Source: Ochromonadaceae sp. CCMP2298
Taxonomy: Eukaryota; Sar; Synurophyceae; Ochromonadales; Ochromonadaceae
Length of the DNA stretch: 29,021 nt
NCBI GenBank assembly: GCA_026770595.1
Contig: MU633689.1
Location: 1-29,021, forward strand
Direction: 5' to 3'
Made by a program: the position numbers and the translations under genes. A model generated the notes under the pieces. It worked only from the letters and a program-made list of their open reading frames with translations. It had not been told where the DNA came from and did no database searches. Of this stretch, positions 903 to 28,529 are shown piece by piece. Position 1 is the stretch's first letter, and every line of letters begins with the position of its first letter.

Positions 903-3900
903 ATGGATAGAGCCCATGCAGTAAACGATCTTACGGGCGACGACGTGCTAGAGCCGCCGGCGGAGATCCTTGCGTTGCGGGAAATCCTGTGTGATATGGG
1001 CAGCGCGACCTACCGGGTGGAGGATTTCCTGCACTACCTCACAGCCTGCAGGTAGACACCGTCGCATCGCAGACCCAAGTTCAAAGTGATTAACCCCTTT
1101 CCCATATTTGCAGGCGAGGAAACGACGAGAAGGCCAAGCTGCTGAAGGGTGCGCGCAACGATGTAGCGCAGCGCGAGATAGCCGGAGGAGATCTGTACGT
1201 GCGCCCACCTCTGAGTTTTCCTATATCCTGTGTATGTTACTTACTTGTCTACTGCCCCCCTACTGCCCCTTCTACCCCTATTGCCCCTCTACTACCCCCC
1301 TACCGCCCCTGTACTGCCCTTTCCGCCCCCCTACTACCCCCACTGCCCTACCCCTCTTCTGCTACTACCCCCACTGCCCCCGTATCTGCTCTCTTCGCAA
1401 CGCCCTCAGGATTCACGATGAGCTGCCGGAGCTTTTTGTGCAGCTATCCGAGGTACGACTCACCTACTCGCTTTGCGCATCTGTGTGCTCTAAACACCCG
1501 CACGCACTTGTCTACACGACCTCAGCTGCACTCCTACATTCCTTAACCCCTCCACCTCTACCCTCCTACCCTCCTACCTCCCTCCTACCCTCCTACACTT
1601 CCGCTCGCACAGGACATAAACGGCTCGCAGGCGGCCACCGAGCAGCTGATGAAAAAGATGCAGCAGGAGCGACACGTCCTGCAGGATGCCATCAGGATCG
1701 CCAAGGAGGCCGAGAACCGCTTTCTTGTCTACCTGGAGTCCTCCTGCGACGCGCGGCTGCACGAGCAGGTACGCTGTACCCTGTATGCTGTACCCGATTG
1801 GGCCGATTCGCCCTCGCCCCTCTGCACGCACTACATACACGCATTGTCTAATTCTTCCCACTACGCCCCCTCTCTCCTTCCCTATCCCTCCACCCTCCCA
1901 TCCCCCCCCCCTTAGGCGGCCAAGGGCTACGCCGCCGGCTCTAAGACCTGGACCAGGATCTCCTCCCTGCTGAATCCTGACGAGGGCAAGAAGAAAGGAG
2001 GCATGGACAGGTTCGTCACGCAGACGCAGACGAAGCAGACGAAGCAGACGGGCAAGCGAGGCAGGCAGGGCAGCGAGTTCGACGGCTTTATAGACAACGA
2101 GGAGGGGGAGGAGAGGGGGGGCAAGGACAGGTCGGGGGACGAGGAGTGGTCGGAGGGGAACGCGAAGGGTAACGCGAAGAAGAAGCCCAAGGGTAACAAG
2201 AACACTTCCGCGAAGCCTGACAAGACAGACAAGACTGACGAAAACGGATGGCTGGAAAGTCAAAAGCCCAAGAAGGGGAATAAGGCAAAAGGCACCGGGG
2301 GCACTGGCTTTGGGTATGAGGATGGGGACTACTTCCCCACTAGTTCAGCAGGTAACCCCAGCAAAAATAGGGCCTCTATGGACCAGAAGATGTCGCAATT
2401 AACCGCGCAGCAAGAGGCGAAGAAGCCATTCAGCGATGAGGAGGACGATGACCCTCCCCGCAACGTTCCCATCCGCAAAAAGGGCGAGCGCGGGGGCGAG
2501 CGCGGGGGCGAGCGCGGGGGCGAGCGTGGGAGCGAGCTTGGGGCGAAGATGAGACCTACCACCAACACCTACGCCAATGGCAACCATACCAATGCCAACA
2601 CCAATGGTACCAACTACACCAGAGGTGAGGGGGATCATGGGAACCCAGTGGATCTGGTGGACGACGCGGATTCCCCAGGGGCTGCGGGTGCGGCTGCAAG
2701 TGCCGGTGCAAGAGCGGCTGCTGCTGTGAGGGCGGGTGCTGCAGTAGAGCGGGATGGTAACAGAGGGAAGGGGCCTCTCACTGGGGGGTCGGTGAGAATG
2801 TTGAACAGCCCGTCAGAGTCTATGTCAGGTGCTAATGCTGGTGCGGGTGCTGGTGTCGCCGCCCTCACGAGCGGCGGCACCCCTGATGTGCACCCCCTCA
2901 GCAGGACTGATGGGGGCGGGAGTGGGATTAGCGTGAATGGGAATGGCGGGATACAGGGGCAGGGGGTGCAGGGGGTACAGGGTCAGGAGGGCGACAAGGG
3001 GCCATCCCATCATCCCCAATACGATAGCAGCAGAAGTAATTACAACAGCAGCAGCAGCAGAGGAAATAGTTTTAGCAATAGCGGCGGTGGTGGCGGTGGC
3101 GGTGGCGGTGCCTTGGGCGGCAGTGGCAGTGGCGGTGTCGACGTGCGCATACCAGTGATGACGGGGTTCGGGGGCGGCTTCTTTGGTGATTCGGCACACA
3201 TCTCTATCGCGGGTGAGGGTGTGGGTGGGATTGGGGGTGGGATTGGGGATGTGGGTGGGGCTGTAGGCATGGGTGTGGGCACAGGGACGCAAGACTCCCG
3301 CCAGGACACTGACCCCGGAGACGCAGAGAATGCAGAGGCAGGGGGGGCTGTGAGAGGGATAGCAGCGAGGGATGAGAACGCCCATCGGGAGTCAGAACCA
3401 CTGTCAGAACACCCCTTTGGTACTATGTTTTCGCAGTACGCGCACACAGATACTCCTGTGAAGAGTCCGGTTAGGAAGAGTCCGGCTGGGGACGTGCGCT
3501 CTGCAAGGGGGTCCGTCTCGTACGGCCTGGGGGCTGGAAGTGCCTTAGAGAGCATACCCGGCCCCTTTAGCCCTAGTGCCGCTCGGGGGCGGGAGCAGGA
3601 GCAGGGGCCGGGGCGGGAGCAGCGACAGGGGCGGGAGCAGGGACAGAGGCGGGAGCAGGGACAGGGGCGAGACCAGGGGCAGAGGCGGGATCAGGGGCAG
3701 GGACAGGAACCGGGGCGGGGGCCGGGGGGTCGATCAATCAGCCACAGCGTGCCCAGTCCCCTGAAACAGAGCACTATAGTTTCGATGGCAATAACGGGAG
3801 TTATGGAGAGAGACTCGAGGAGCAAAGGAGAGCAGGAGAGGGAGGAGAGGGAGCGGGAGCAAACGCGGAAGAAGGAGGGAGAGAAGGAGAAGGAGAGGGA

Positions 3901-4114
3901 GAAGGAGAGGGAGAAGGAGAGGGAGAAGGAGATGAAGAGGGAGAGGGAAAGGGAGAAGGAGAGGGAGGAGAAGGAGGAGAAGGAGAGAGAGAGAGCGAGG
4001 GAGAGGGACGAGAAGGAGAAGGAGAGGGAGAGAAAGGATAGTGGGAGAGGGGGGGAGAGTCGGGTACCACGACCCCGTCAAGGAAGCGAAGGCGGGGTGA
4101 TCGATCTGACTTAG
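903..4114 (+). CDS. Unrecognised protein, five exons, long low-complexity tail ending in a SUMO-interaction-like motif
   Basis: Inferred exons 903-1051, 1114-1194, 1410-1452, 1613-1768 and 1916-4114 join in frame to 875 residues. All four introns are GT-AG. The ATG at 903 sits in a strong context (ACCATGG). Residues 1-170 look ordered and helical, with segments such as LPELFVQLSEDING and LMKKMQQERHVLQDAIRIAK that suggest coiled coil; I do not recognise the family. From about residue 175 the protein is low complexity: Lys/Gly/Asp-rich, then Gly/Ala-rich, a poly-Gly run near 532, a Gly-Arg-Glu-Gln repeat around 700-735, and a long Glu-Arg-Lys stretch to about 855. The last five residues, VIDLT, resemble the SUMO-interaction motif known from PIAS proteins. 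Exon 5 is extremely purine-rich on the sense strand while introns 2-4 are pyrimidine-rich. Function unknown; the exon joins are inference from frame and splice sites. Confidence 0.7.
1195..1409 (+). repeat. Pyrimidine-rich tandem array inside intron 2 of the first gene
   Basis: Imperfect copies of a CCCCTACTGCC-like unit fill most of this 215-base intron. Introns 3 (1453-1612) and 4 (1769-1915) are also C/T-rich, with CCTACCCT repeats and a run of ten C before the TTAG acceptor. These arrays stay open in several frames and create spurious Pro-rich reading frames. Confidence 0.8.
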
Positions 4115-4383
4115 GCCATAGGATTGTCTAATTTCAAAATATGGTGTTTTCTCGTTAATCCTTTTATCCAGATTGATGAAACGCACGCATTGCGAAGCTC
4201 CTTGAGCTGTTGAGGGATGCGGAGTTGCTGAAGAGAAGTAGAGGAATCTTACGAGTAGGTGTATCTCCGCTCTGGTTATATATTGAAGCATCCCTCTCTG
4301 GTTCGATCGTTTGCAGAGAAAGTGCGAAGTTCCCTAATCTGTTGAAGGAGTACAGCTGGCTTTGACTTTTGACCGAGAGACAC

Positions 4384-5063
4384 ATGTGGGCGCTTGCAGC
4401 ACTCCTCCAGCTGTGCCTGTTCGCGGTCGCATTTTCAGTAACGGGGGAGATCGTCTCATGTCCTGGATGAAAGTTAAACCGTCTGCCTGAAGTCAAAGCG
4501 TTTCTAAAACAGGTGAGCCATGGAAACTCGCACACCATCCCACGCCGTCATTCCACTCCTAACCTCATTACCGACGATTGCTAGCCTGGCCATGCAGACG
4601 CGTACGTGGGATTGAGGCTAAAGTGGATAGCAGGGCGGTCACCGGAGCTTACCATCAAGGCAGATAACGGGACAGTTACGGATAAGATCGATTTGACATC
4701 GGTACATGCCACCTCTCGCCCCACTACCATCAGCACCTATGCTCCATCAGTACCATCATCAGTCCACTCTATGTCATTGACGCTACTTCGCCACTCACAC
4801 ACTGCACACTCCATAATCCCCATATCGCCATAAAACCATAACACACATAATCATACAACCATATTACCATAACCCTTCACCTTTAACACACGACATAAAA
4901 TTTATCACCTCCACAGTACTCCACCGACGGGCTTCACGAGCTCATGCTGAGCAAAGGGCTCGAGAGAAAGGCACAGGGGGCCAAGGGCCCAGCGCTGAGC
5001 GCGGTTGCTGGGGCAGGGAAGGTGGGGAAGGCGGGAAAGGGGGGGAAGCTGCGGGTGCGATAG
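4384..5063 (+). CDS. SELENOM-like: SelM/Sep15-family selenoprotein (in-frame TGA read as selenocysteine)
   Basis: Exons 4384-4512, 4585-4701 and 4917-5063 join in phase 0 with GT-AG introns to 130 residues, if TGA at 4468-4470 is read as selenocysteine (residue 29). Residues 1-18 form a signal peptide (MWALAALLQLCLFAVAFS). Then comes CPGUKLNRLPEVKAF, where the CxxU redox motif and the LNRLxEVKAF stretch match the thioredoxin-like SelM/Sep15 domain. Exon 2 continues with GLRLKWIAGRSPELTI, like the family's 'K-G-x-x-P-x-L' strand. Exon 3 begins with YSTDGLHELMLSKGL, like the final helix of Sep15. CxxU spacing and the lack of a Cys-rich N-terminal domain favour SelM over Sep15. The known family are ER thiol-disulfide oxidoreductases. 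The basic Gly/Lys tail ends in LRVR with no KDEL-type signal. A SECIS-like hairpin follows at 5130-5193. Family call is strong; orthology to SelM versus Sep15 is less certain. Confidence 0.88.
4468..4470 (+). other. Probable selenocysteine codon (TGA)
   Basis: TGA sits exactly at the U position of the CxxU motif. The frame stays open for 14 codons beyond it to a good GTGAGC donor, and those codons encode family-specific residues. A stop here would leave only a 28-residue signal-peptide fragment. Confidence 0.88.
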
Positions 5064-5129
5064 CCAATAGATAGCGGTAGGGGGCTTACAAAGAGTATGT
5101 GTTGCTGGTAAGGCTAGACGCAGTATGGG

Positions 5130-5193
5130 GTGTTGTTGGGATGATGTCGAGGCTGTGACAGCTAGTCAGCGCACTCGACTGATGTAATAATAC
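5130..5193 (+). promoter_or_regulatory. Candidate SECIS element in the 3' UTR of the selenoprotein gene
   Basis: About 67 bases after the stop codon the RNA can fold as a SECIS. Helix I pairs GUGUUGUUG (5130-5138) with UAAUAAUAC (5185-5193) using Watson-Crick and G-U pairs. An internal loop carries GGA on the 5' side. UGAU (5142-5145) faces UGAU (5180-5183), giving the U-U, G-A, A-G quartet of the core. Helix II pairs GUCGAG (5146-5151) with CUCGAC (5174-5179) perfectly and extends with GCUG/CAGC around a three-base bulge. The apical part (5156-5166) has no AA at the expected place, which is atypical; some SECIS have other bases there. Drawn by eye, not energy-calculated. Confidence 0.72.
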
Positions 5194-5833
5194 CTCACTC
5201 GGCTTTGGTTAATTAAAATTTTGAAACTATGAAACGAGGTGATTTGAGATTAATGTCGGCTCTGTATTCAATTCGACTTAGAAATCCTATCAGACAATCC
5301 TCCTCATCTCTGACAGCACGGTCCAAAAGAAGCGGAAGTAAGACCTGGTCTGCATCACAGCCGTGCAGCTCTGTACTATTCTCGTTGGGGAATAACGTAT
5401 TATTGTTGAAAATACCGTATTTTTGTTGTTGATGAAACTGCTGGCAGTTTGAGAGGAGAGCAACAAGCTTTCTTTCTGCGCCAGAGATGATCGGGAAGTG
5501 TTCGAGAGGTAGGAGTCTTGTTCGGCTTCCCAGTTACTATCGCTGCTCCGAGGGAGGTTCTTCGGACCCAGGCATTGCGAGGGTAGGGTGAGACGCGAGA
5601 CGCTCTGGGGGCGAGCTACTCACCACCGCGGGCATCGTTCGAGCCTGCGACCCCTAGGACCGCTCGAAACCGCTTATGCGAACACTCGTGACTGATAGAG
5701 TGCTAGCTTCGTAGCAGAGTTCAGCTCAGAAGCTTACAGCCTTGGAGGTATTTAGGCTCAGAGGTTCAGAGTCCAGAGGTTTAGAGGTTCAGAGGCTCAG
5801 AGGTCGATATACAGCGTACAGAGATAGCGAGAG
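5194..5833. other. Gene-free stretch between the selenoprotein and tetraspanin genes
   Basis: The first part is the likely selenoprotein 3' end, with an AT-rich patch around 5210-5222 that may mark polyadenylation. I see no gene. A short imperfect array of TCAGAGG-like units lies at about 5753-5804, just before the tetraspanin start, and is probably in that gene's 5' UTR or promoter. Confidence 0.6.
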
Positions 5834-6994
5834 ATGTGCTCCAGCGCCTCAATCCGCATGCAGGTGATGGTCTTCAGCTGGTTCAAGCTGGGCTGCGCCC
5901 TGTACATCTTCTTAACAGGCATCTACTTCTCCTCCTCCGGGGACCTGCTCAGAGCCTTCGGGCTGGAGTTCGTCTCCTACGGCCTGAGCCTCATCTTCCT
6001 CGGGCTGCTCTCCGCCGGCGTGATCATCCCGCACAAGTACGCGATCAACCGGCACAACCGCTTCCTGCTCGCCTTCATATTCGTCATGGACACTATCGTA
6101 TTCGCCGAGTTGATCAACTACGGCGTGATCGTGGGCACCTATCTGGATCCCCTGTTCCCCAAAGAGCTGCAGACGGACTGCCTGCTGAACTCCCCGGAGA
6201 TCTACACCGTCGACGAGTGCACGCCCTTCTACAACGCAGACCGCACCGCGGGCATGCGGCTACTGTGGGAGTCCTACTTCTCTGATAAGGAGAACAAGGT
6301 GTCCTTCCAGGTGCTGACTACCATCGAGGCAGACAGCTGCTGCGGCTTCTTCCAGCCGTACCGCTGCATCGAGAACACCGACTCCTTCCCCACCACACGT
6401 CTGACGGACGACATAGACTCAGCACTGCTCGCCCAGCGCGTGACCTGCGGGGCCTACGATGACTACTACCCCGCGCAGAGCAACTGCATCGACTACGAAG
6501 ACTTCAACGCAGACCCGCCCATCGTGGGCGGCTGCTACTACGACCTGGGCGTGGGCTTCTGCCTCGACGTGCCCATCCGCACAGGCTCCCTGGGCTGCGC
6601 CTCGGCCGTGGAGGACTACGCCGTGGCGCTTATATCCATCCACTCGACGATGCTGATCGTGGCCTCCATATTCAGCCTGCTGTTCATGCTCTACAGCTGC
6701 TGCATGTGGTGGAAGCGCAAGGACGACGACGTGTTCCCCGAGTTCACCACGGACGTGCAGGTGAAGTACCAGTACAAGCATGTAAAGGACCAGTTCCAAG
6801 TGCAGCCCAAGAAAAATCTGCTCGTTAAGGAGGGTTTTGTGGCTGGGCCCGATTCGGGGGGAATGGAGGGGGGGGAGCAGGAGGAGGGGGGGCAGGGGGG
6901 GGGGGGGGAGGGGGGCGGAGGGGACGAGGAGAAGCTCGACGAGGACGAGGAGGCGGGGATGGAGTTGCGGCAAAAGGTCAAAGCTGATGACTAG
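5834..6994 (+). CDS. Tetraspanin-like four-pass membrane protein
   Basis: Intronless, 386 residues. Four hydrophobic segments are visible at about 11-32, 46-65, 77-100 and 261-285. Short loops join TM1-TM3, and a large loop of about 160 residues separates TM3 from TM4. That loop holds the tetraspanin signature Cys-Cys-Gly at 169-171 (SCCGFF) and further cysteines, ending with GC at 254-255 just before TM4, as in tetraspanin large extracellular loops. The loop is longer than the usual 80-120 residues. The cytoplasmic tail is Gly/Glu-rich (about 340-375) and is encoded by G-runs at 6880-6925. Tetraspanins organise membrane microdomains; no specific role or location can be read here. ATG 5834 is the first in frame before TM1. 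Confidence 0.75.
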   Translation: MCSSASIRMQVMVFSWFKLGCALYIFLTGIYFSSSGDLLRAFGLEFVSYGLSLIFLGLLSAGVIIPHKYAINRHNRFLLAFIFVMDTIVFAELINYGVIVGTYLDPLFPKELQTDCLLNSPEIYTVDECTPFYNADRTAGMRLLWESYFSDKENKVSFQVLTTIEADSCCGFFQPYRCIENTDSFPTTRLTDDIDSALLAQRVTCGAYDDYYPAQSNCIDYEDFNADPPIVGGCYYDLGVGFCLDVPIRTGSLGCASAVEDYAVALISIHSTMLIVASIFSLLFMLYSCCMWWKRKDDDVFPEFTTDVQVKYQYKHVKDQFQVQPKKNLLVKEGFVAGPDSGGMEGGEQEEGGQGGGGEGGGGDEEKLDEDEEAGMELRQKVKADD

Positions 6995-20817: not shown

Positions 20818-23800
20818 CTAAGCTGCTACGGCTACGGGGAAGGGGCTGAGGGCGACCTCTGCTGCGGAGTCGTAGAGGAAGAACTGCGGAATCGTGTGCT
20901 CCTGTATGGAGGCCGAGGACCACCGCAGCTGCGCAGACTTGGCCCCCGCTGCGTCCGAGGATGCCACCACCACGATGCGGTAGGCGGCGCCCAGGCGCAG
21001 CGCCGAGGGGAGCGAGACGCCCGTGCCCCCCGAGTCGAAGACCAGCTCGTCGTCCAGGAAAATGGACGCGTTTATGTATAGGCTGCGCACCACTAGGGTG
21101 AAGGCGTCCGTGCGGGGGGAGAGTAGGTACCCCTCCCAGCGAACTGAGCTCCCCAGGGGCCCCCCAGAGGTGGTGGTGGAGGCTCCGGAGGCTCCGAGGG
21201 GGTCTAGGGGGACCATGCTGCCTGTCCATGAGAAGTCGACCGTGGTGTCGATGCGGGCGACCCTAAGGCTCGTGGGGGTGGCCGTGGAGGCGAGGGGCGC
21301 GGTGGCCGCGGTGGGGGAGGAGTAGTAGGAGGCGGTGAGGCCCAGGCCGCCCGGGCGCGCGACCGAGCTGTTCAGCAGCCGCAGGGTGAGCCGGTGCGCG
21401 CCCGCGTCCGCCGCAGTGTACGTGCACACAGTGCGGCCGTTCTGCGTGTCCGCGCAGCGCGGCACGACATCCCGGCGCGGCGCCTGGAAGGCCGCGTCTC
21501 CGCCCAGGCGTGCGTAGAGGCGGTCTCCGCCCCGGACGAGGTTGTTGTTAAAGCTGTCGTACAGCTGCACCTCGAAGCCGGCCGAGGTGTTGGCCCTCGC
21601 CTGCCGCAGCCCCACGCCCCTGCATACCGTCAGGGGCGCGAAAGCCTTGCCGGGGTGCATCTCCACCTGGAAGGGCGAGGCCACTATCGGCTTCGAGGCG
21701 TTCGCGCCGTGCCCCGGTGCGAGGGCGACGTACATCAGGAAGCTGCCTGCGCGCTGGAAGGTGTACTGCGTGGTTATGAGGGAGGGGGAGTACTGCGAGG
21801 CCAGGGCGAGGGGCAGGACCTGGTCGGACGCACCGACGAAGACGAAACGCACGCTGAGAGATGCGTCCTCCGCGGTGGTGGGGTTGTTGTGCAGGTCCCG
21901 GAACAGCACATTGAACTCCAGAGGCTCCCCCACCCGCCCCCCCAGCAGCCCCTCGCCCACGGCCACTGAGCGGGTGGGGTCGAGGGGCGCGGACTCCACG
22001 TGCAGCAGGAAGGGCGCCCCCTGCACCAGCAGCCCAGCCATGCCCTGCAGCTCCCCCGGATAGCCCACGTTGGGGTGCAGCGCGCAGCAGCCGATACTCA
22101 CGTACATGAGGAAGTCTCCCGCCTGCGTGGCGTAGTACTCTACCAGGTAGGTGGAGTTCCCGTAGTCCGTTACCAGCCCCCTGAACGCCACGCCGTCCCT
22201 GCCGATGGCCAGCATGGTGGGCACATCGCCGCCCTCCTGCAGCAGGCTGTCGAACTCGTCTCTGGCGTAGACCCAGAAAGACTGGCGCACCGCCACCCTG
22301 GCCGAGGTGAGCGCGGCGCCAACTGCGGTGCTGCAGTGGGCGCACAGGGGCGCGGGGTGCACGGTGGTGTTGAAGTGCGAGGCGTTGCGCCAGTGGCTGT
22401 AGGCGGAGGCGGGCACGGGCGCGTAGGGAGTCGAGGGGCTGGCCCAGAAGAGGGACAGCTGCGCGTCGCCCGTGGTGTGCACGAACCTCACTTCGAACTC
22501 CCTGTACAGCGTGTCAGAGAAATTATACCTCCCCGAGCCCCCCGCCCCCTGACCCGTGGTGTTCAAAACCAGCAGTCCGGGCTGGGAGTTGTTGAACTCC
22601 AGCCCGCGGCCCCCAACGCGCAGGGTGGCTGTGGAGGCCGAGTCGATCTGGAAGGAGAAGACGTACTCCTCCGCGTACTGGGGGGTAATCATGCCTGTCC
22701 ACGTGGCAGCCCAGTACTCGTCCCGGAACTTGTACCGCTCAATGGCCCCTGTGGGCCCCGTGTTGCCCATGTAGGCCTCCACGTCTCCCCGCATGTCGAG
22801 GGAAATGTTCTGCTCAGCGCGGGAGAGGAACCTGCCCTCGAACGAGCCCTCGCCCAGGGCGCCCCGCACGTCCTGGCGCCTGCCCAGGTCCCCCGTCCAG
22901 CTGACCGCAGTACGTACGTTCTGCGGCACCCCCTGCAGGCCCTGTTTGAAGGAGGGGTAGCGCTGGTCCTGGTCGGAGAGGTGTCCGAAGGAGGTGGAGT
23001 TGAAGTACGTGGCGTTGAGCCCCGCCTCCGCCACGGCCACGCGGAGTACGTACTGCCCTGCGGCCTGGGCCGTGTAGTCCACAGAGAGGGTGCCGTCCAT
23101 GTGGTCTAGGGGCAGCCCGTAGTAGGTCGGATAGCCGGAGTAGAAGCCGCGGTAGTAGGGCTGGTCTGGGAGGCCCTGGTGGGGCGGGAGGGGCTCGGGG
23201 GTGCCCCAGTCCACCCCCACGCCCAGCAGGGCGACCTCGACTGCGCGCCCGCCTGTGAGCTTGTTGGAGAAGTAGTCGCGCAGCTGCAGGCGCACCTGGG
23301 CGGTGACCCCGGCCACGCAGTCGTACAGGTCGCCCGTGAGGTCGGTGAGCTCTGCGCGCGGGTGGGAGGGCAGGACGAGCGCGGTGAAGGGGGAGTTGGA
23401 GAGCTCCACTAACGTGTCCGTGAGCTCCGTGGCGCCTGCGTCTACCAGGAACGCGGAGATGTGTATGTCGCCCCTGAGCAGGGGCCGGAAGGAGGCCCAG
23501 TAGTGGCCCCCATAGGCGTCGTCCACGTCGCACACGGGGTGTCCGGCCTGCGGCGGGCTGGGGCAGGCCTGCGCCGCGCCGGTTATATTGTTCGCCCCGC
23601 CCACTGTAAAATTATACCTGTCCGTGTAGGTGGTTTTGCGGTTCCCGTGTAAGTCCAGGGAATAAATCGAGAAGTACGAAACGTCCCCGGCCCGCCCGGC
23701 GGTGAGGCCCGCGCCCGAGGCGAAGCTGTACGCGGCCGAGGCGGCCCCATCAGCCACAGGCACGCTGAAGGGGCTGCCCCGTATCTGCGCGCTGTCCGCG

Positions 23801-26800
23801 AAGACCGATACGAGGTTGGCGCCCTTGAGCAGGGGCGTGTAACGGACGTTATAGGAGCCGTTTCGGTAGTCAAATATGTCCACCAGGGCGCCGGGGGAGA
23901 GGTCGAGCTTGGCAGACAGGGTGACGGCGGGGGTGGAGGTGCGCATAACGTTGTCAAAGGGGTCACGGAGGGTGACCATGAAGGACACAGGCACGCCCAC
24001 CGTGGCGCCCACGAGCCCCGCGCCCTCCGCGGTGGAGGTGATGCCGCTGCTCTCTGTGTGGCTGACCTGCAGGTAGTAGGGAGAGTCCGCCACATACTGC
24101 CCATAGTACGTACCGCGACCGCTGGGCACGAGTCGGCTGTGGTACAGAGAGAGGACCTTGTGGGGCTGGTTGGACACCCCTCGGCCCCTCACCAGTATGT
24201 GCGTTTCGTACGTGCCCTGGATGACGGGGCACAGCTGCACTGTATAGTTGCCGTCCCCGTGATCCGCAACCGTCCCCTCCCGCACCACGTCTTGCAGTGC
24301 GTCGGATGGGGGCGAGGTGGTGTAGTGCGCGTTGGCGAGGATCGTGGAGGGCTGAGGCGTGGGGGCTCTCGTGGGGGCGGCCGAGGGCACGTCGATGGGC
24401 ATGGAGGCGCCCTCCTCGGCGGCGTGGAAGTCGACCCTGAACATGTAGGCGCTGAGGTCGGCCCCGCCCGAGTAGAGGAGGTTCTGCGCGTCGTCGCGGG
24501 CCACCACGGTGAACGAGTAGCACCGCCCGGCCTCGGCGTACAGCGGGCTGGGCAGCCCGTGCACCAGGGAGCGCGGGCCGGAGAGGCCGGCGGGCCCCAC
24601 GGTGAGCAGGAAGGGGCTCCCGGCCACCTGGGCGGCGCCATCACCTCGTGCTGTTTCGTAAATGACGCCCAGGGTGTACTGGCCCGCGATCTCGGGCGTG
24701 TAGGAGAAGTCAAAGCACGCAGTGAGCGGGTTGTACAGGTGCGCGGGGGTGACGCGCTCGGCGCCCACGCCGCCGCTGTCCGAGGTCAGGAGCTCCAGCG
24801 AGGCGGAGAACAGCTGTGTGGAGAGGTAGAACTCGTCGTCGTCGTCGCGTAGGTTGCCGAAGCGGTCCCTGGGGCAGACCGAGAAATGCGACTGCGTCAG
24901 TGCCGTGGCGCCGAAGAGCCCCTCGCCCGTGCACTCCGTGGTGGCCGCGTAGGTGTCCGCGGAGGCCACGGTTACCAGCACGGGCGAGCGGTCTATCTCA
25001 AAGAGCGAGTAGAGGCGGTCCTGGGGGATCACTGCCATAGGACCGGCGCCGCGGGCCCACGTAAGGCGCGCGCGCGCCTCGCCCCGCACCTCTCTGTACT
25101 CCATGACGATCTCCACCAGCCTGCCCGCCGCCAGGAACACCTCCCGGCTGGGCTCGAGGTTCACGTACTGCTCGTGCCAGTGGTCCAGCAGCAGGTCGCC
25201 GGCCACCCACAGCCTCGCGTGGTCGTCGGCCTCCACCTTGAAGCGGTAGTTGCCGCTCAGAGGGGGCATGACTGCGCCGCTCCAGCGGACGGATATGTAG
25301 TCGCTGCCGCGGGGGATGAGCTTGCCCGTGCCCCACGTGAAGTTGACCTGGTGGTCGAGCCGCTGCACGGCGAGGCTCTCGAAGAACCCGTCGTAGAAGT
25401 ACTCGCCCCGGATGGAGGAGGGGAAGGCGTGCCAAATGCGCAGCTGGTAGACACCCTGCTCCTGAATGCCCCCCGAGGTGACCGTGTAGGTGCCCGCGCC
25501 GTCGTCCGTTACGTTGGCTTGTCTGCGCAGGGAGTTGCGCTGGCCGCTGGACCACCGGGAGACGTCGTTCTCGACCAGGGCGAAGAACTGCTCCCCGCCG
25601 GTGGACAGCCTGGCGCCGTTGGCGGCCATCGCCTGCACCTGGGTGGCGATCGCGCCCCCAGCCTTCACCAGGGTGGTGTTCTGCAGAGAGCGGGTCAGCT
25701 TGGCAGAGAGCTTCTCCGCATCGTCGTCAATGATGGTGACGTTGGTGCGGAACTGCGCGCCCACCGAGCCCCCGCCCTCGGGCACCTCCAGCACAACCTG
25801 GAACACCTCGTTCTCCTCCACGATGTTGTCGTCCAGGATGGTTATCAGAAAGGACCTCTCGATGACCCCCTCCTCGAAGCTGAGGCGCTGCAGAGTCGTG
25901 TAGGGCGCGGTCGCTATGAGGTCTGAGTCGTTGGTGGTGAAGTGCTTGATGTAGTAGTTGATCTGCGCATGCCCGAAGCCGCCCCCCGTGCGCCGCACCT
26001 GCATGCGGATGGAGGTGGTGGTTTCGCTGATCTCGTAGTTCGGGTAGACGAACGTGAACACCCCGTAGTGCCCGCACACAATGTGGCTGGTGGTGAAGGG
26101 CGAGCACTGCCAGGACTCGTCGTCGTTCAGGCCCTGCGCGCAGCTGATGGAGGCGTTTTTCAGGGGCTGGTCTGCCGTGCTGGACACGAAGTACGCCTCT
26201 GCGTCTGCGAAGCTCTCAGGCGACTTCGTGCCGAAGGGCAGGGTTATGCCGAACTCTCGTGTGTTCTCCTCCTCCGGCAGGGCGGGGTCGGAGGAGCGGT
26301 AGCCAGAGCGGCGCACAGACGTGAGGGTCGAGTCGGCGCAGACGGTGCAGCCCTCTTCGCGCGTGCACCCGGCGCAGCGGGGGTCGAAGTTGAAGCAGCT
26401 GCCGCACACGTCGTCCTCCAGGGTGAGGTAGTAGCCCGCAGCGCACTTGAGGCACTGGTCGTTGGTGCACGCCTCGCACAGGGGGTGGTGCTTGGTGCAC
26501 AGGAGGTTCTCGCACTCGAGGCCGGTGCGGTGCGGGAAGCATTCGCACAGGCCCGAGGCGAAGTTGCACACGCCCGCCCCGGAGCAGTCGTTCGGACAGA
26601 GTCTTTTGGGAAAGCACAACTGGCCGATGCGGAAGTGCGAGTCGGAGCACTCTGTGCAGTCGATGCCGATGTAGCCGGTGTTGCAGAAGCACGTGCCGGA
26701 CCGCCGGTCGCAGTAGCCGTACTCGCGCGCGGTACAGAAGAAGTTGCCGTCCGAAAAGGGGCCTACCATTCCAGGGCAAGACTGCCGCGGCGAGACTCCT

Positions 26801-27006
26801 TCGTAGAGAAGCTCCTGGTCGGATGTCTCGAAGGCTCCTTCGTTTATTCGCTCGCGCTGGAAGTTGCTGGGGTCTCCGTAGATGCCAACGAAGCCCCGGT
26901 CGAAGGGCTGGAAGTATGTGCCGTTCGGAGTCGTCGAGCCGGGATTCAGGATACGATAACTGCCAGCTGGTCGCGCCAGTACGCATAGTAAGAGGATGTA
27001 GAGCAT
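20818..27006 (-). CDS. Large secreted multidomain protein: Cys-rich/EGF-like, Calx-beta, PA14 and filamin-type repeats
   Basis: One 6.2-kb exon, 2062 residues. ATG at 27006 was chosen because it begins a signal peptide (MLYILLLCVLARPAGS); the open frame extends upstream but without one. Residues about 65-230 are Cys-rich with EGF-like units (CDRRSGTCFCNTGYIGIDC, CNFASGLCECFPHRTGLEC). About 315-428 looks like a Calx-beta domain ending VTIIDDD. PA14-like domains lie near 532-660 (SGNYRFKVEADDHARLWV), 1406-1526 and 1890-2040 (WEGYLLSPRTDAFTLVV). Between them are roughly eight filamin/ABP280-type Ig repeats, recognised by recurring GxGL..A..G....F.V..RD.F.N, e.g. GLVGATVGVPVSFMVTLRDP and GLLGGRVGEPLEFNVLFRD. 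Many N-x-S/T sites are present. There is no C-terminal membrane segment, so it is probably secreted or cell-surface/matrix. PA14 often binds carbohydrate, but no ligand can be inferred. Confidence 0.85.
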   Translation of the reverse strand: MLYILLLCVLARPAGSYRILNPGSTTPNGTYFQPFDRGFVGIYGDPSNFQRERINEGAFETSDQELLYEGVSPRQSCPGMVGPFSDGNFFCTAREYGYCDRRSGTCFCNTGYIGIDCTECSDSHFRIGQLCFPKRLCPNDCSGAGVCNFASGLCECFPHRTGLECENLLCTKHHPLCEACTNDQCLKCAAGYYLTLEDDVCGSCFNFDPRCAGCTREEGCTVCADSTLTSVRRSGYRSSDPALPEEENTREFGITLPFGTKSPESFADAEAYFVSSTADQPLKNASISCAQGLNDDESWQCSPFTTSHIVCGHYGVFTFVYPNYEISETTTSIRMQVRRTGGGFGHAQINYYIKHFTTNDSDLIATAPYTTLQRLSFEEGVIERSFLITILDDNIVEENEVFQVVLEVPEGGGSVGAQFRTNVTIIDDDAEKLSAKLTRSLQNTTLVKAGGAIATQVQAMAANGARLSTGGEQFFALVENDVSRWSSGQRNSLRRQANVTDDGAGTYTVTSGGIQEQGVYQLRIWHAFPSSIRGEYFYDGFFESLAVQRLDHQVNFTWGTGKLIPRGSDYISVRWSGAVMPPLSGNYRFKVEADDHARLWVAGDLLLDHWHEQYVNLEPSREVFLAAGRLVEIVMEYREVRGEARARLTWARGAGPMAVIPQDRLYSLFEIDRSPVLVTVASADTYAATTECTGEGLFGATALTQSHFSVCPRDRFGNLRDDDDEFYLSTQLFSASLELLTSDSGGVGAERVTPAHLYNPLTACFDFSYTPEIAGQYTLGVIYETARGDGAAQVAGSPFLLTVGPAGLSGPRSLVHGLPSPLYAEAGRCYSFTVVARDDAQNLLYSGGADLSAYMFRVDFHAAEEGASMPIDVPSAAPTRAPTPQPSTILANAHYTTSPPSDALQDVVREGTVADHGDGNYTVQLCPVIQGTYETHILVRGRGVSNQPHKVLSLYHSRLVPSGRGTYYGQYVADSPYYLQVSHTESSGITSTAEGAGLVGATVGVPVSFMVTLRDPFDNVMRTSTPAVTLSAKLDLSPGALVDIFDYRNGSYNVRYTPLLKGANLVSVFADSAQIRGSPFSVPVADGAASAAYSFASGAGLTAGRAGDVSYFSIYSLDLHGNRKTTYTDRYNFTVGGANNITGAAQACPSPPQAGHPVCDVDDAYGGHYWASFRPLLRGDIHISAFLVDAGATELTDTLVELSNSPFTALVLPSHPRAELTDLTGDLYDCVAGVTAQVRLQLRDYFSNKLTGGRAVEVALLGVGVDWGTPEPLPPHQGLPDQPYYRGFYSGYPTYYGLPLDHMDGTLSVDYTAQAAGQYVLRVAVAEAGLNATYFNSTSFGHLSDQDQRYPSFKQGLQGVPQNVRTAVSWTGDLGRRQDVRGALGEGSFEGRFLSRAEQNISLDMRGDVEAYMGNTGPTGAIERYKFRDEYWAATWTGMITPQYAEEYVFSFQIDSASTATLRVGGRGLEFNNSQPGLLVLNTTGQGAGGSGRYNFSDTLYREFEVRFVHTTGDAQLSLFWASPSTPYAPVPASAYSHWRNASHFNTTVHPAPLCAHCSTAVGAALTSARVAVRQSFWVYARDEFDSLLQEGGDVPTMLAIGRDGVAFRGLVTDYGNSTYLVEYYATQAGDFLMYVSIGCCALHPNVGYPGELQGMAGLLVQGAPFLLHVESAPLDPTRSVAVGEGLLGGRVGEPLEFNVLFRDLHNNPTTAEDASLSVRFVFVGASDQVLPLALASQYSPSLITTQYTFQRAGSFLMYVALAPGHGANASKPIVASPFQVEMHPGKAFAPLTVCRGVGLRQARANTSAGFEVQLYDSFNNNLVRGGDRLYARLGGDAAFQAPRRDVVPRCADTQNGRTVCTYTAADAGAHRLTLRLLNSSVARPGGLGLTASYYSSPTAATAPLASTATPTSLRVARIDTTVDFSWTGSMVPLDPLGASGASTTTSGGPLGSSVRWEGYLLSPRTDAFTLVVRSLYINASIFLDDELVFDSGGTGVSLPSALRLGAAYRIVVVASSDAAGAKSAQLRWSSASIQEHTIPQFFLYDSAAEVALSPFPVAVAA

Positions 27007-27446
27007 GGTGTCTAGTCCCTGGCGGGCAGAGCCGCGGATCTGAAGTGGGGGCGATGCGCAGGCCCTAAGCGCGGTTCCAGTCGCCTCGCTCCACGTGCTG
27101 CAGCCTGGGCCGGTGAATCCAGACAACCGCAACCTCTCAGAGGCGGACAGAGAGCTGCCCGCTGCGAAAGAATGGCTTTCGCGGTGAGAAGGGGTCCAGA
27201 AGATCTCGATCGAGAGAGCTGGGAGAGCCGTCGTCTTGTGCGGGAGGGGGAAGTAACCGACGTAACTTACAACGTAACTCAGGGGACTTTTCCCAGTTTT
27301 CGGCCGCCTTTCTCCGGACTTGGTTCCAGTTTTGCCCTCGCATCGATGACTGGCTGCCGAAAGCAGGAGAGTGTGCCTCGCAAGACCGGCTTTGATTGCA
27401 CTCCCACAATAGCAGAGACCTGTCACCGGGATTAAATCCGTGGGCA
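27007..27446. other. Divergent promoter region of the large secreted-protein gene and BRX1
   Basis: 440 bases between start codons. The minus-strand frame of the large gene happens to remain open through this region, but it lacks any signal-peptide start and shows no domain. No other gene is seen. Confidence 0.6.
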
Positions 27447-28529
27447 ATGAGCGGCAAGAAGAGGACTATCAAGCAGGTGGAGGCGGTAGAGGAGGAGGAG
27501 GAGGAGGAGGAGCAGGAGGCGGAGGAGGAGGAAGAGGAGGAGGAGGAGGAAGAAGAGGTCGAGGAGGCGGAGGAGGCTGCGGAGGAGGACGAGGAGTCTG
27601 AGACTGAATTCAAACCAACTGTGGGCAGGCCAAAGATGGCGTACAACAATAAGCAGAGGGTTCTTATACTGGCCTCCAGAGGCATCACCGCTCGTTATCG
27701 CCATCTGGTGGAGGACTTCAAAAAGCTCATCCCCCATCACAAGAAGGACAACAAGCTAGACGATAAGGGAGACATCAATGCAGTCAATGAGATCGCAGAC
27801 ATGAAGAGTTGCAACCAGATTCTCTACCTGGAGACCAGGAAGCGCCAGGACCTTTACATGTATCTCGGCAAGACGCCGGAAGGACCCTCGGCGAAGTTCC
27901 ACGTGGTCAACATCCACACCATGGACGAGCTGAAGCTCACCGGCAACTGCATGCTGGGCTCGAGACCGTTGCTGAACTTCGACACGAAGTTTGACGACAA
28001 GCCGCAGTTCCAGATCTTGAAGACGATCCTGGCAGACACCTTCGGCACGCCCTACGGCCACCCCAAGAGCAAGCCCTTCAACGACAGGGTTATGTCCTTC
28101 TTCGTCGTCAAGAACAACATATGTAAGTACCATCTATTGTCTCCATCCCGTATTCATCTTAACCATATTCTAATTACTGTCTACTCTCACTTTTCGTCAC
28201 TTTCCGTCACCTCAGGGGTACGGAACTACCAGGTTATCGACAAATCCGACGGCACCACCGCCAGCGTGAAGAAGAACGAGTCTCAGCTGGTAGAGATCGG
28301 CCCCCGCTTCGTGCTCATCCCCATCCGCATCTTCAACGGCTCTCTGGGCGGCCCCACCTTATACCAGAACCCTGCGTACGTGTCTCCCAACCAGGAGCGG
28401 TCCGACTACAAGAAGAGGAAGGGCGACCGTTACGTGCAGCGGACGGGCCACTCGCAGAAGAGGCAGGCGTTCCTGTCCGAGCACGTTATGCCGGTCGATG
28501 AACTTGCCAGCATCAATGTGTTCAAATAG
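27447..28529 (+). CDS. BRX1: Ribosome biogenesis protein BRX1 (Brix domain)
   Basis: Exons 27447-28122 and 28216-28529 join in phase 1 (GTAAGT donor, CTCAG acceptor) to 329 residues; the join restores NIWVRNYQVI, the conserved I-W-x-R-N-Y-Q of the family. ATG 27447 is followed by a basic start (MSGKKRTIKQ) and a Glu-rich tract (about 14-60). The Brix domain starts near RVLILASRGITARYRHL and includes EIADMKSCNQILYLETRKR, MDELKLTGNCMLGSRPLL and GPRFVLIPIRIFNGSLGGPT. BRX1 acts in the nucleolus in 60S subunit assembly, in the early pre-60S particle with other Brix proteins. Animal and yeast proteins are about 290-350 residues, so this is complete. The intron's first bases stay in frame, so an unspliced reading also looks open. 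Confidence 0.97.
   Translation: MSGKKRTIKQVEAVEEEEEEEEQEAEEEEEEEEEEEEVEEAEEAAEEDEESETEFKPTVGRPKMAYNNKQRVLILASRGITARYRHLVEDFKKLIPHHKKDNKLDDKGDINAVNEIADMKSCNQILYLETRKRQDLYMYLGKTPEGPSAKFHVVNIHTMDELKLTGNCMLGSRPLLNFDTKFDDKPQFQILKTILADTFGTPYGHPKSKPFNDRVMSFFVVKNNICKYHLLSPSRIHLNHILITVYSHFSSLSVTSGVRNYQVIDKSDGTTASVKKNESQLVEIGPRFVLIPIRIFNGSLGGPTLYQNPAYVSPNQERSDYKKRKGDRYVQRTGHSQKRQAFLSEHVMPVDELASINVFK

Follow-up and report, generated by a model that had tools for sequence, protein, structure and literature searches.

A predicted three-exon SELENOM gene with TGA at the selenocysteine codon in the chrysophyte Ochromonadaceae sp. CCMP2298

SelM selenoproteins of photosynthetic protists have been described before. 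In its account of the family, PMC2375036 reported them in 2007 in Ostreococcus and, with two genes, in the diatom Thalassiosira pseudonana, and a survey of 137 algae records algal SELENOM, including fusions in Aureococcus and Emiliania (PMC7539508). The main text of that survey contains no word starting with "ochromon" or "chrysophy". Our literature search gave no paper pairing selenoprotein with Ochromonas, and among those pairing it with chrysophyte none is, judging by the listing, evidently about chrysophyte selenoproteins. The locus studied here comes from the Arctic chrysophyte Ochromonadaceae sp. CCMP2298 (taxid 483371), whose published assembly comprises 12,764 scaffolds totalling 61.1 Mb, at a BUSCO coverage of 80.2% (PMC9756366). 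The window, by which we mean the whole stretch of DNA analysed, comprises 29,021 bases of eukaryotic sequence and also encodes PRP38, SRP54, CFA20, Brix and WD40 domain proteins according to Pfam. The SelM gene is flanked by an ORF without a Pfam match (1916-4114) and by a tetraspanin-like gene (5834-6994), the product of which stays under the Pfam cut-off (28.2 vs 32.1 bits). Elsewhere in the window, an ORF of 2215 codons on the minus strand (20821-27465) contains filamin repeats, PA14 and Calx-beta domains, and a sub-threshold match to the C/D-box snoRNA snoZ7 was found at 5382-5454 on the plus strand (23.8 bits vs 43, E 0.21). The genome searches covered 11.2 Mb on 724 contigs of the approximately 61.1 Mb assembly, so that the absence of a gene from them says little.

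The locus is very probably a three-exon SELENOM gene of CCMP2298, in which codon 29, a UGA, would be translated as selenocysteine (Sec) under the direction of a downstream hairpin to give a CPGU oxidoreductase (Table 1). The three exons, each of a length divisible by 3, join in phase 0 into a frame of 130 residues plus stop, and the TGA is the sole internal stop of this frame. The sequence-only reading had described a three-exon selenoprotein of the Sep15/SelM family hidden by its TGA, with a signal-peptide-like start, CPG-TGA-KLNRLPEVKAFLKQ and a GT donor, and with the TGA exactly at the Sec position of the family; all of these points hold. The Pfam search that it had proposed for the translation returned the Sep15/SelM domain (PF08806) at 62.4 bits against a cut-off of 26, over residues 22-96. 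The acceptor of exon 2 that keeps the frame is TAG followed by CCT at 4585, and use of a CAG 13 bases downstream would break it.

Table 1. Features of the SelM locus and its downstream hairpin, in positions of the window.
Feature	Position	Strand	Description
Exon 1	4384..4512	+	Signal-peptide-like N-terminus, CPGU redox motif, then KLNRLPEVKAFLKQ; GT donor at 4513
In-frame TGA, codon 29	4468..4470	+	Predicted to be read as selenocysteine; the paralogue (L001) also has TGA here
Intron 1 (GTGAGC...TAG), phase 0	4513..4584	+	Insert at same site in P0016, P0017, P0026
Exon 2	4585..4701	+	PGHADAYVGLRLKWIAGRSPELTIKADNGTVTDKIDLTS; joined reading frame, PF08806 spans residues 22-96
Intron 2 (GTACAT...CAG), phase 0	4702..4916	+	Same site in the paralogue and in P0012, P0013, P0016, P0017, P0026, P0030, P0035
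Exon 3	4917..5063	+	YSTDGLHELMLSKGLERK, basic tail; TAG stop at 5061-5063
SECIS-type hairpin	5126..5197	+	62 bases between stop and hairpin

Both splice junctions are supported externally, because several of 22 fetched relatives carry extra sequence at the same sites. At the site of intron 1, three of them have an in-frame insert, taken here for a phase-0 intron left unspliced, and seven enter intron-like sequence where intron 2 lies (both sets are named in Table 1). Both sites are crossed without a break by P0002, P0003 and others. Splicing of the three exons in the cell is thus predicted at the level of DNA. A decayed pseudogene, in which the TGA is a true stop, would be compatible with a downstream hairpin that is not a canonical SECIS (see below), but every other codon is open, the splice sites lie where the relatives have them, the domain is conserved at the score given above, and the catalytic residue is precisely the one at which the stop lies. 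We regard decay as highly improbable.

Three other genes of the genome also have TGA at the Sec codon. A second SelM gene, on contig C134 (L001 1367-1823), consists of three exons and reads MELLRVAILLAIAVATLAIE/GEIISCTG-TGA-KLNKLPEVRTFLKEAGHAD..., with CTGU carrying TGA at the same codon as in the window gene and KLNKLPEV starting after the TGA. This paralogue scores 63.5 bits with PF08806, a profile that matched none of the 14 control genomes in the genome search. Its second intron occupies the same site as intron 2 of the window gene; at the site of intron 1 it has no intron, and one lies between the signal peptide and the domain instead. The GPx search gave three matches, of which two contain TGA, both as VNVASK-TGA-GLT (L015 on C147 and L017 on C72). 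The remaining match, L016, lacks TGA and represents a later exon of the C72 gene; an extra TAA in the L017 match belongs, as judged by eye, to a GTAAGA splice donor. These genes are named GPx1 (L015/L018, C147) and GPx2 (L016/L017, C72, minus strand). With TGA occupying the homologous Sec codon in four genes of the same genome, chance is excluded as the origin of the TGA.

A sequencing or assembly error for TGC or TGT, by which the gene would be a Cys homologue, has two points in its favor. Cys stands at the Sec position in P0002, P0003, P0013, P0016 and P0017, and close relatives thus seem to include both Sec and Cys forms. The window locus is also represented once, as no second copy or allele of it was found among the 724 contigs (11.2 Mb). 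An error here, however, would have to recur identically at the paralogue codon and at the Sec codons of both GPx genes, and the gene is followed by a SECIS-type hairpin. That the TGA is an error is very unlikely.

With regard to the decoding machinery, of which the sequence-only reading had suggested to look for SECp43, EFSec and SBP2 elsewhere in the genome, tRNA-Sec and SepSecS were found in the 11.2 Mb searched, and EFSec was not. A tRNA-Sec gene (L002 1501-1587, C179) scores 56 bits against a gathering score of 47. Its anticodon loop CUUCAAA corresponds to a UCA anticodon; a TATA-like stretch precedes the gene by 31-38 bases, and a T5 run follows it. Non-standard pairs make up three of the nine in the acceptor stem, and ARAGORN misses the gene. 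SepSecS was found with a score of 271.8 bits, and its matches L003-L008 on C231 and C321 share score and spacing, possibly representing two haplotypes or a redundant assembly. Neither a tRNA-Sec nor a SepSecS match is proof alone, because control genomes match too: the tRNA-Sec family is found at E 0.001 in all 14 and over the cut-off in 5, and the SepSecS cut-off is passed in 3 of the 14, including Bacillus subtilis. In the 11.2 of about 61.1 Mb searched, EFSec, SPS2 and PSTK were not found, and the profiles selD, KTI12/PSTK and Rdx gave no match. The profile euk_SelB_III (PF21208) had no match in the genome either, a null result that is uninformative because the controls are without a match too. 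The SelB/EFSec profile TIGR00475 gave six matches in the genome contigs, none of which was accepted as EFSec: by eye from the translation, L009 is eEF1A, the single ORF comprising L010 and L013 resembles eIF2-gamma, L011 resembles mitochondrial EF-G, and L012 resembles an EF2-type protein.

The public records illustrate how such genes are lost from annotation. The hypothetical protein B484DRAFT_323572, partial, of Ochromonadaceae sp. CCMP2298 (P0006) is identical to the second SelM copy from the codon after the TGA to the end. This public model begins just after the TGA, and gene prediction thus cuts such genes, as the sequence-only reading had expected. For the window gene, no record of its own appeared in the protein searches (the largest covering the best 120 of 612 matches), and it is probably unannotated. 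Used as the only query, the window sequence retrieved a single relative, P0001, whose first residue lies five positions past Sec; with a three-row alignment, 38 relatives were found. Across 145 fetched proteins, the Sec column holds C in 79, a gap in 48, W in 17 and L in 1, where C in named selenoproteins is no proof of Cys because the retrieval passes U as C; at least one record (P0045) lacks the residue altogether. Among the W rows, P0022 was discounted as a misaligned end, which leaves 16 (P0004, P0007, P0008, P0011, P0012, P0026, P0032, P0033, P0039, P0042, P0069, P0070, P0075, P0102, P0103 and P0136).

These Trp rows most likely come from gene callers that read TGA as Trp, to judge from the protein sequences. 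They could also be taken as a sign that TGA is reassigned genome-wide, for example to Trp, and not recoded as Sec. Against this stand the TGA at known Sec codons in four genes and the presence of tRNA-Sec and SepSecS genes. Trp also occurs in P0070, which is otherwise close to the mammalian SelM rows and groups with them, suggesting a gene-caller origin, and Trp is not known to serve a redox function in CxxU motifs. Reassignment is exceedingly improbable. Database proteins with Trp at the Sec position may rather offer a cheap route to mining hidden selenoproteins.

Downstream of the stop, the window contains a hairpin with SECIS-type architecture. It has a 13-pair helix I, a helix II of 8 + 4 pairs and a 5-base loop, with the quartet TGAT (5142-5145)/TGAT (5180-5183) preceded by A. 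The fold of 5126-5197 reaches -32.9 kcal/mol (z -4.23, none of 200 shuffles as good), whereas a version trimmed to 5126-5192, in which helix I is incomplete, has z -2.09, and 6 of 200 shuffles do as well. When the quartet is kept unpaired, the top hairpin within 300 bases downstream of the stop has -32.4. In 500 dinucleotide shuffles of this 300-base flank, none reached that value, 70 held any qualifying hairpin and the best was -25.0, under criteria (ATGA, at least 7 helix I pairs) that were set after the hairpin was seen. Over the whole window, the hairpin ranks fourth of 60 listed candidates on the plus strand, where two of the three above it are one site, and 1 of 31 candidates on the minus strand is better. 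By helix II energy alone, the flank hairpins at 5433 and 5589 exceed it. Such hairpins are not rare across the window, and the position of the hairpin therefore counts as much as its energy.

The sequence-only reading had also proposed a SECIS prediction in the 3' UTR, and the outcome is divided: a SECIS-type hairpin with an AC loop is found, and Rfam SECIS_1 matches neither the window nor the genome contigs, nor 4300-5860 at E 10; L016, L018 and L019 give no SECIS match at E 10 either. The candidates were sought by hand-made quartet scans combined with folding. When AA or CC was required, two first scans yielded spurious matches in the window flank, 1 and 2 respectively, and the scans without this requirement gave the quartet at 5142. 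The published search rule, as stated in PMC2375036, reads NTGA, 10-13 nt, AA or CC, 15-39 nt, GA; for vertebrates, the relevant part of PMC3316567 gives AA as usual and CC in placental-mammal SelM and mammalian SelO. The window hairpin has the GA/GA core and, 13 nt after ATGA, AC and not AA or CC, and a scan for elements with AA or CC returned no candidate at 5126-5197. Only one candidate in the 3' flank carries AA, 9 nt past its quartet, and it folds weakly (-11.3 kcal/mol). The hairpin would lie in the 3' UTR, and it is likely, but not proven, to be the SECIS of the window gene.

Hairpins of the same kind were sought at the other genes. The 3' flank of GPx2 contains two in tandem, at 1025-1118 and 1165-1240 of L016 on the minus strand (z -3.37 and -3.97); a second SECIS would be unusual for a gene with one Sec. 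The one that comes second in transcript order conforms to the published rule (13 nt, AA, 24 nt before GA), and the one at 1165-1240 fails it, with AA only 5 nt after ATGA. For the second SelM gene, the quartet scan gave no candidate and the AA/CC scan gave two, with CC 14 nt after the quartet; for GPx1, the quartet scan gave four (the best at -23.7, almost 600 bases past the stop) and the AA/CC scan none. None of these was accepted. A covariance model built from three hairpins (R1) recovers its own members, with 12.2 bits (E 1.6, L023) as the best other match and at most 8.4 bits in L001 and L018. The window hairpin and the rule-conforming GPx2 hairpin have GGGATGA...CTGATG in common. The corresponding pattern GGATGA-N20..48-CTGATG occurs at 53 places of the genome contigs vs 32 for the reversed control. 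After 30 of the 53 were made into loci, folded and ranked by helix I pairs, the window hairpin came first (-32.5 kcal/mol) and the GPx2 hairpin second (-27.3) among the 12 best listed, the third having 12 helix I pairs and -15.9. As the pattern was built from these two hairpins, the ranking checks consistency and provides no independent test.

Set against the elements described in the SECIS sections of PMC2375036 and PMC3316567, which carry AA, with CC instead in SelM and SelO of mammals, the AC hairpin at 5126-5197 may be a working SECIS with a third type of apical loop that is missed by finders demanding AA or CC. We put this forward tentatively and lean slightly against it. If it were true, the SECIS elements of this alga may be divergent in general, because no canonical element was found near the second SelM gene and GPx1, and the selenoproteins of its kin may be under-counted. 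A working AC element would also test which apical-loop bases SECIS function needs.

Collectively, the TGA of the paralogue, the TGAs of the two GPx genes, the tRNA-Sec and SepSecS genes and the SECIS-type hairpin lead us to read the TGA of the window gene as Sec. In the proposed course of expression, splicing would join the three exons in the mRNA, tRNA-Sec would decode the UGA of codon 29, and the hairpin beginning 62 bases after the stop would direct the insertion. The product would be a thiol-disulfide oxidoreductase of the thioredoxin fold, secreted or residing in the ER lumen and using CPGU as its active site, with its location and redox activity suggested by SelM. Its N-terminus is hydrophobic, and its C-terminus lacks a KDEL-like end. 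The redox motif reads SCPGU-KLNRL with C26 and U29; the only Cys before C26 is C11, within the hydrophobic start, and there is no Cys-rich N-terminal domain.

The sequence-only reading had placed the protein between the SelM and Sep15 (SelF) branches. Its SelM-like CxxU and missing Cys-rich domain stand, and the intermediate position is not supported. Among solved structures, phmmer gives SelM 2a2p as the best match (E 6.4e-09, 39.0 bits) and Sep15 2a4h as the next (5.3e-05, 26.3 bits). A domain tree of 26 rows (24 of the 145 fetched proteins and both genes of the genome; 79 columns, Sec column masked) and a larger tree of 33 rows (31 of the 145 and both genes; 161 columns) were built from rows picked by hand, with labels partly given in the analysis, including P0070 and P0134 as SelM, and with SelF rows of insects only, drawn from the best 120 of 612 matches. 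In the 26-row tree, the six SelF rows lie on one side of a branch with 100/100 support, and the window protein and the second copy sit among their close relatives, beside mammalian SelM; SelF is likewise separate at 100/100 in the 33-row tree. The tree placement that had been suggested as a check therefore falls on the SelM side, from a short alignment, with low support within that side and a long-branch warning for both trees.

A form intermediate between SelM and Sep15 that keeps the state before their split would find support in the DNG-V turn, which is as in Sep15, and in the AU test, where forcing both copies together with the SelF rows was not rejected at 0.05 (p 0.082, 26-row tree), a value that we attribute to the short alignment. 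The best trees nevertheless set the SelF rows apart from all others, the CxxU and the C-terminus KG(L/F)xR(K/R) are of SelM type (KGLERK and KGFKRR match LGFYRK of SelM and are absent from the SelF rows), and a similar turn occurs in P0136, a row of SelM type (EDDGIIERIDL). Because of this counterpart, the DNGTV end, formerly taken as a Sep15-like intermediate trait, looks like an old feature of the fold common to both families that was retained. An intermediate form is improbable, and by its motif, domain make-up and C-terminus the window protein appears to be of SelM type.

In comparison with Sep15/SELENOF, the window protein has in common the Pfam domain and the DxxG-V turn. It differs in its separate tree branch and in lacking the N-terminal Cys-rich domain; SelF has a Cys-rich region at its N-terminus. 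The motif of SelF is given as CxU in the SELENOF part of PMC7539508, and this motif is absent from the window protein, as CPGU has two residues between C and U. With SELENOM, the window protein agrees in the signal-peptide-like start, the CxxU followed by LNRL.EVKAF, the predicted Sec encoded by TGA, the redox domain without a Cys-rich region and the G(F/L)xR(K/R) close to the end. It differs from known SELENOM in having CPGU, where the solved SelM has CGG-Sec (Sec shown as C in the 2a2p match), a GHAD stretch absent from the metazoan rows, the DNG turn, and a basic glycine-rich tail. The findings add two Sec-containing SelM and two Sec-containing GPx genes to the chrysophytes. The closest described case is Thalassiosira pseudonana, likewise a photosynthetic stramenopile with two Sec-containing SelM genes by the description in PMC2375036, though of another stramenopile class and likened here by that description, not by sequence. 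In conclusion, the window gene is a further example of the well-known SelM family, real and ordinary.
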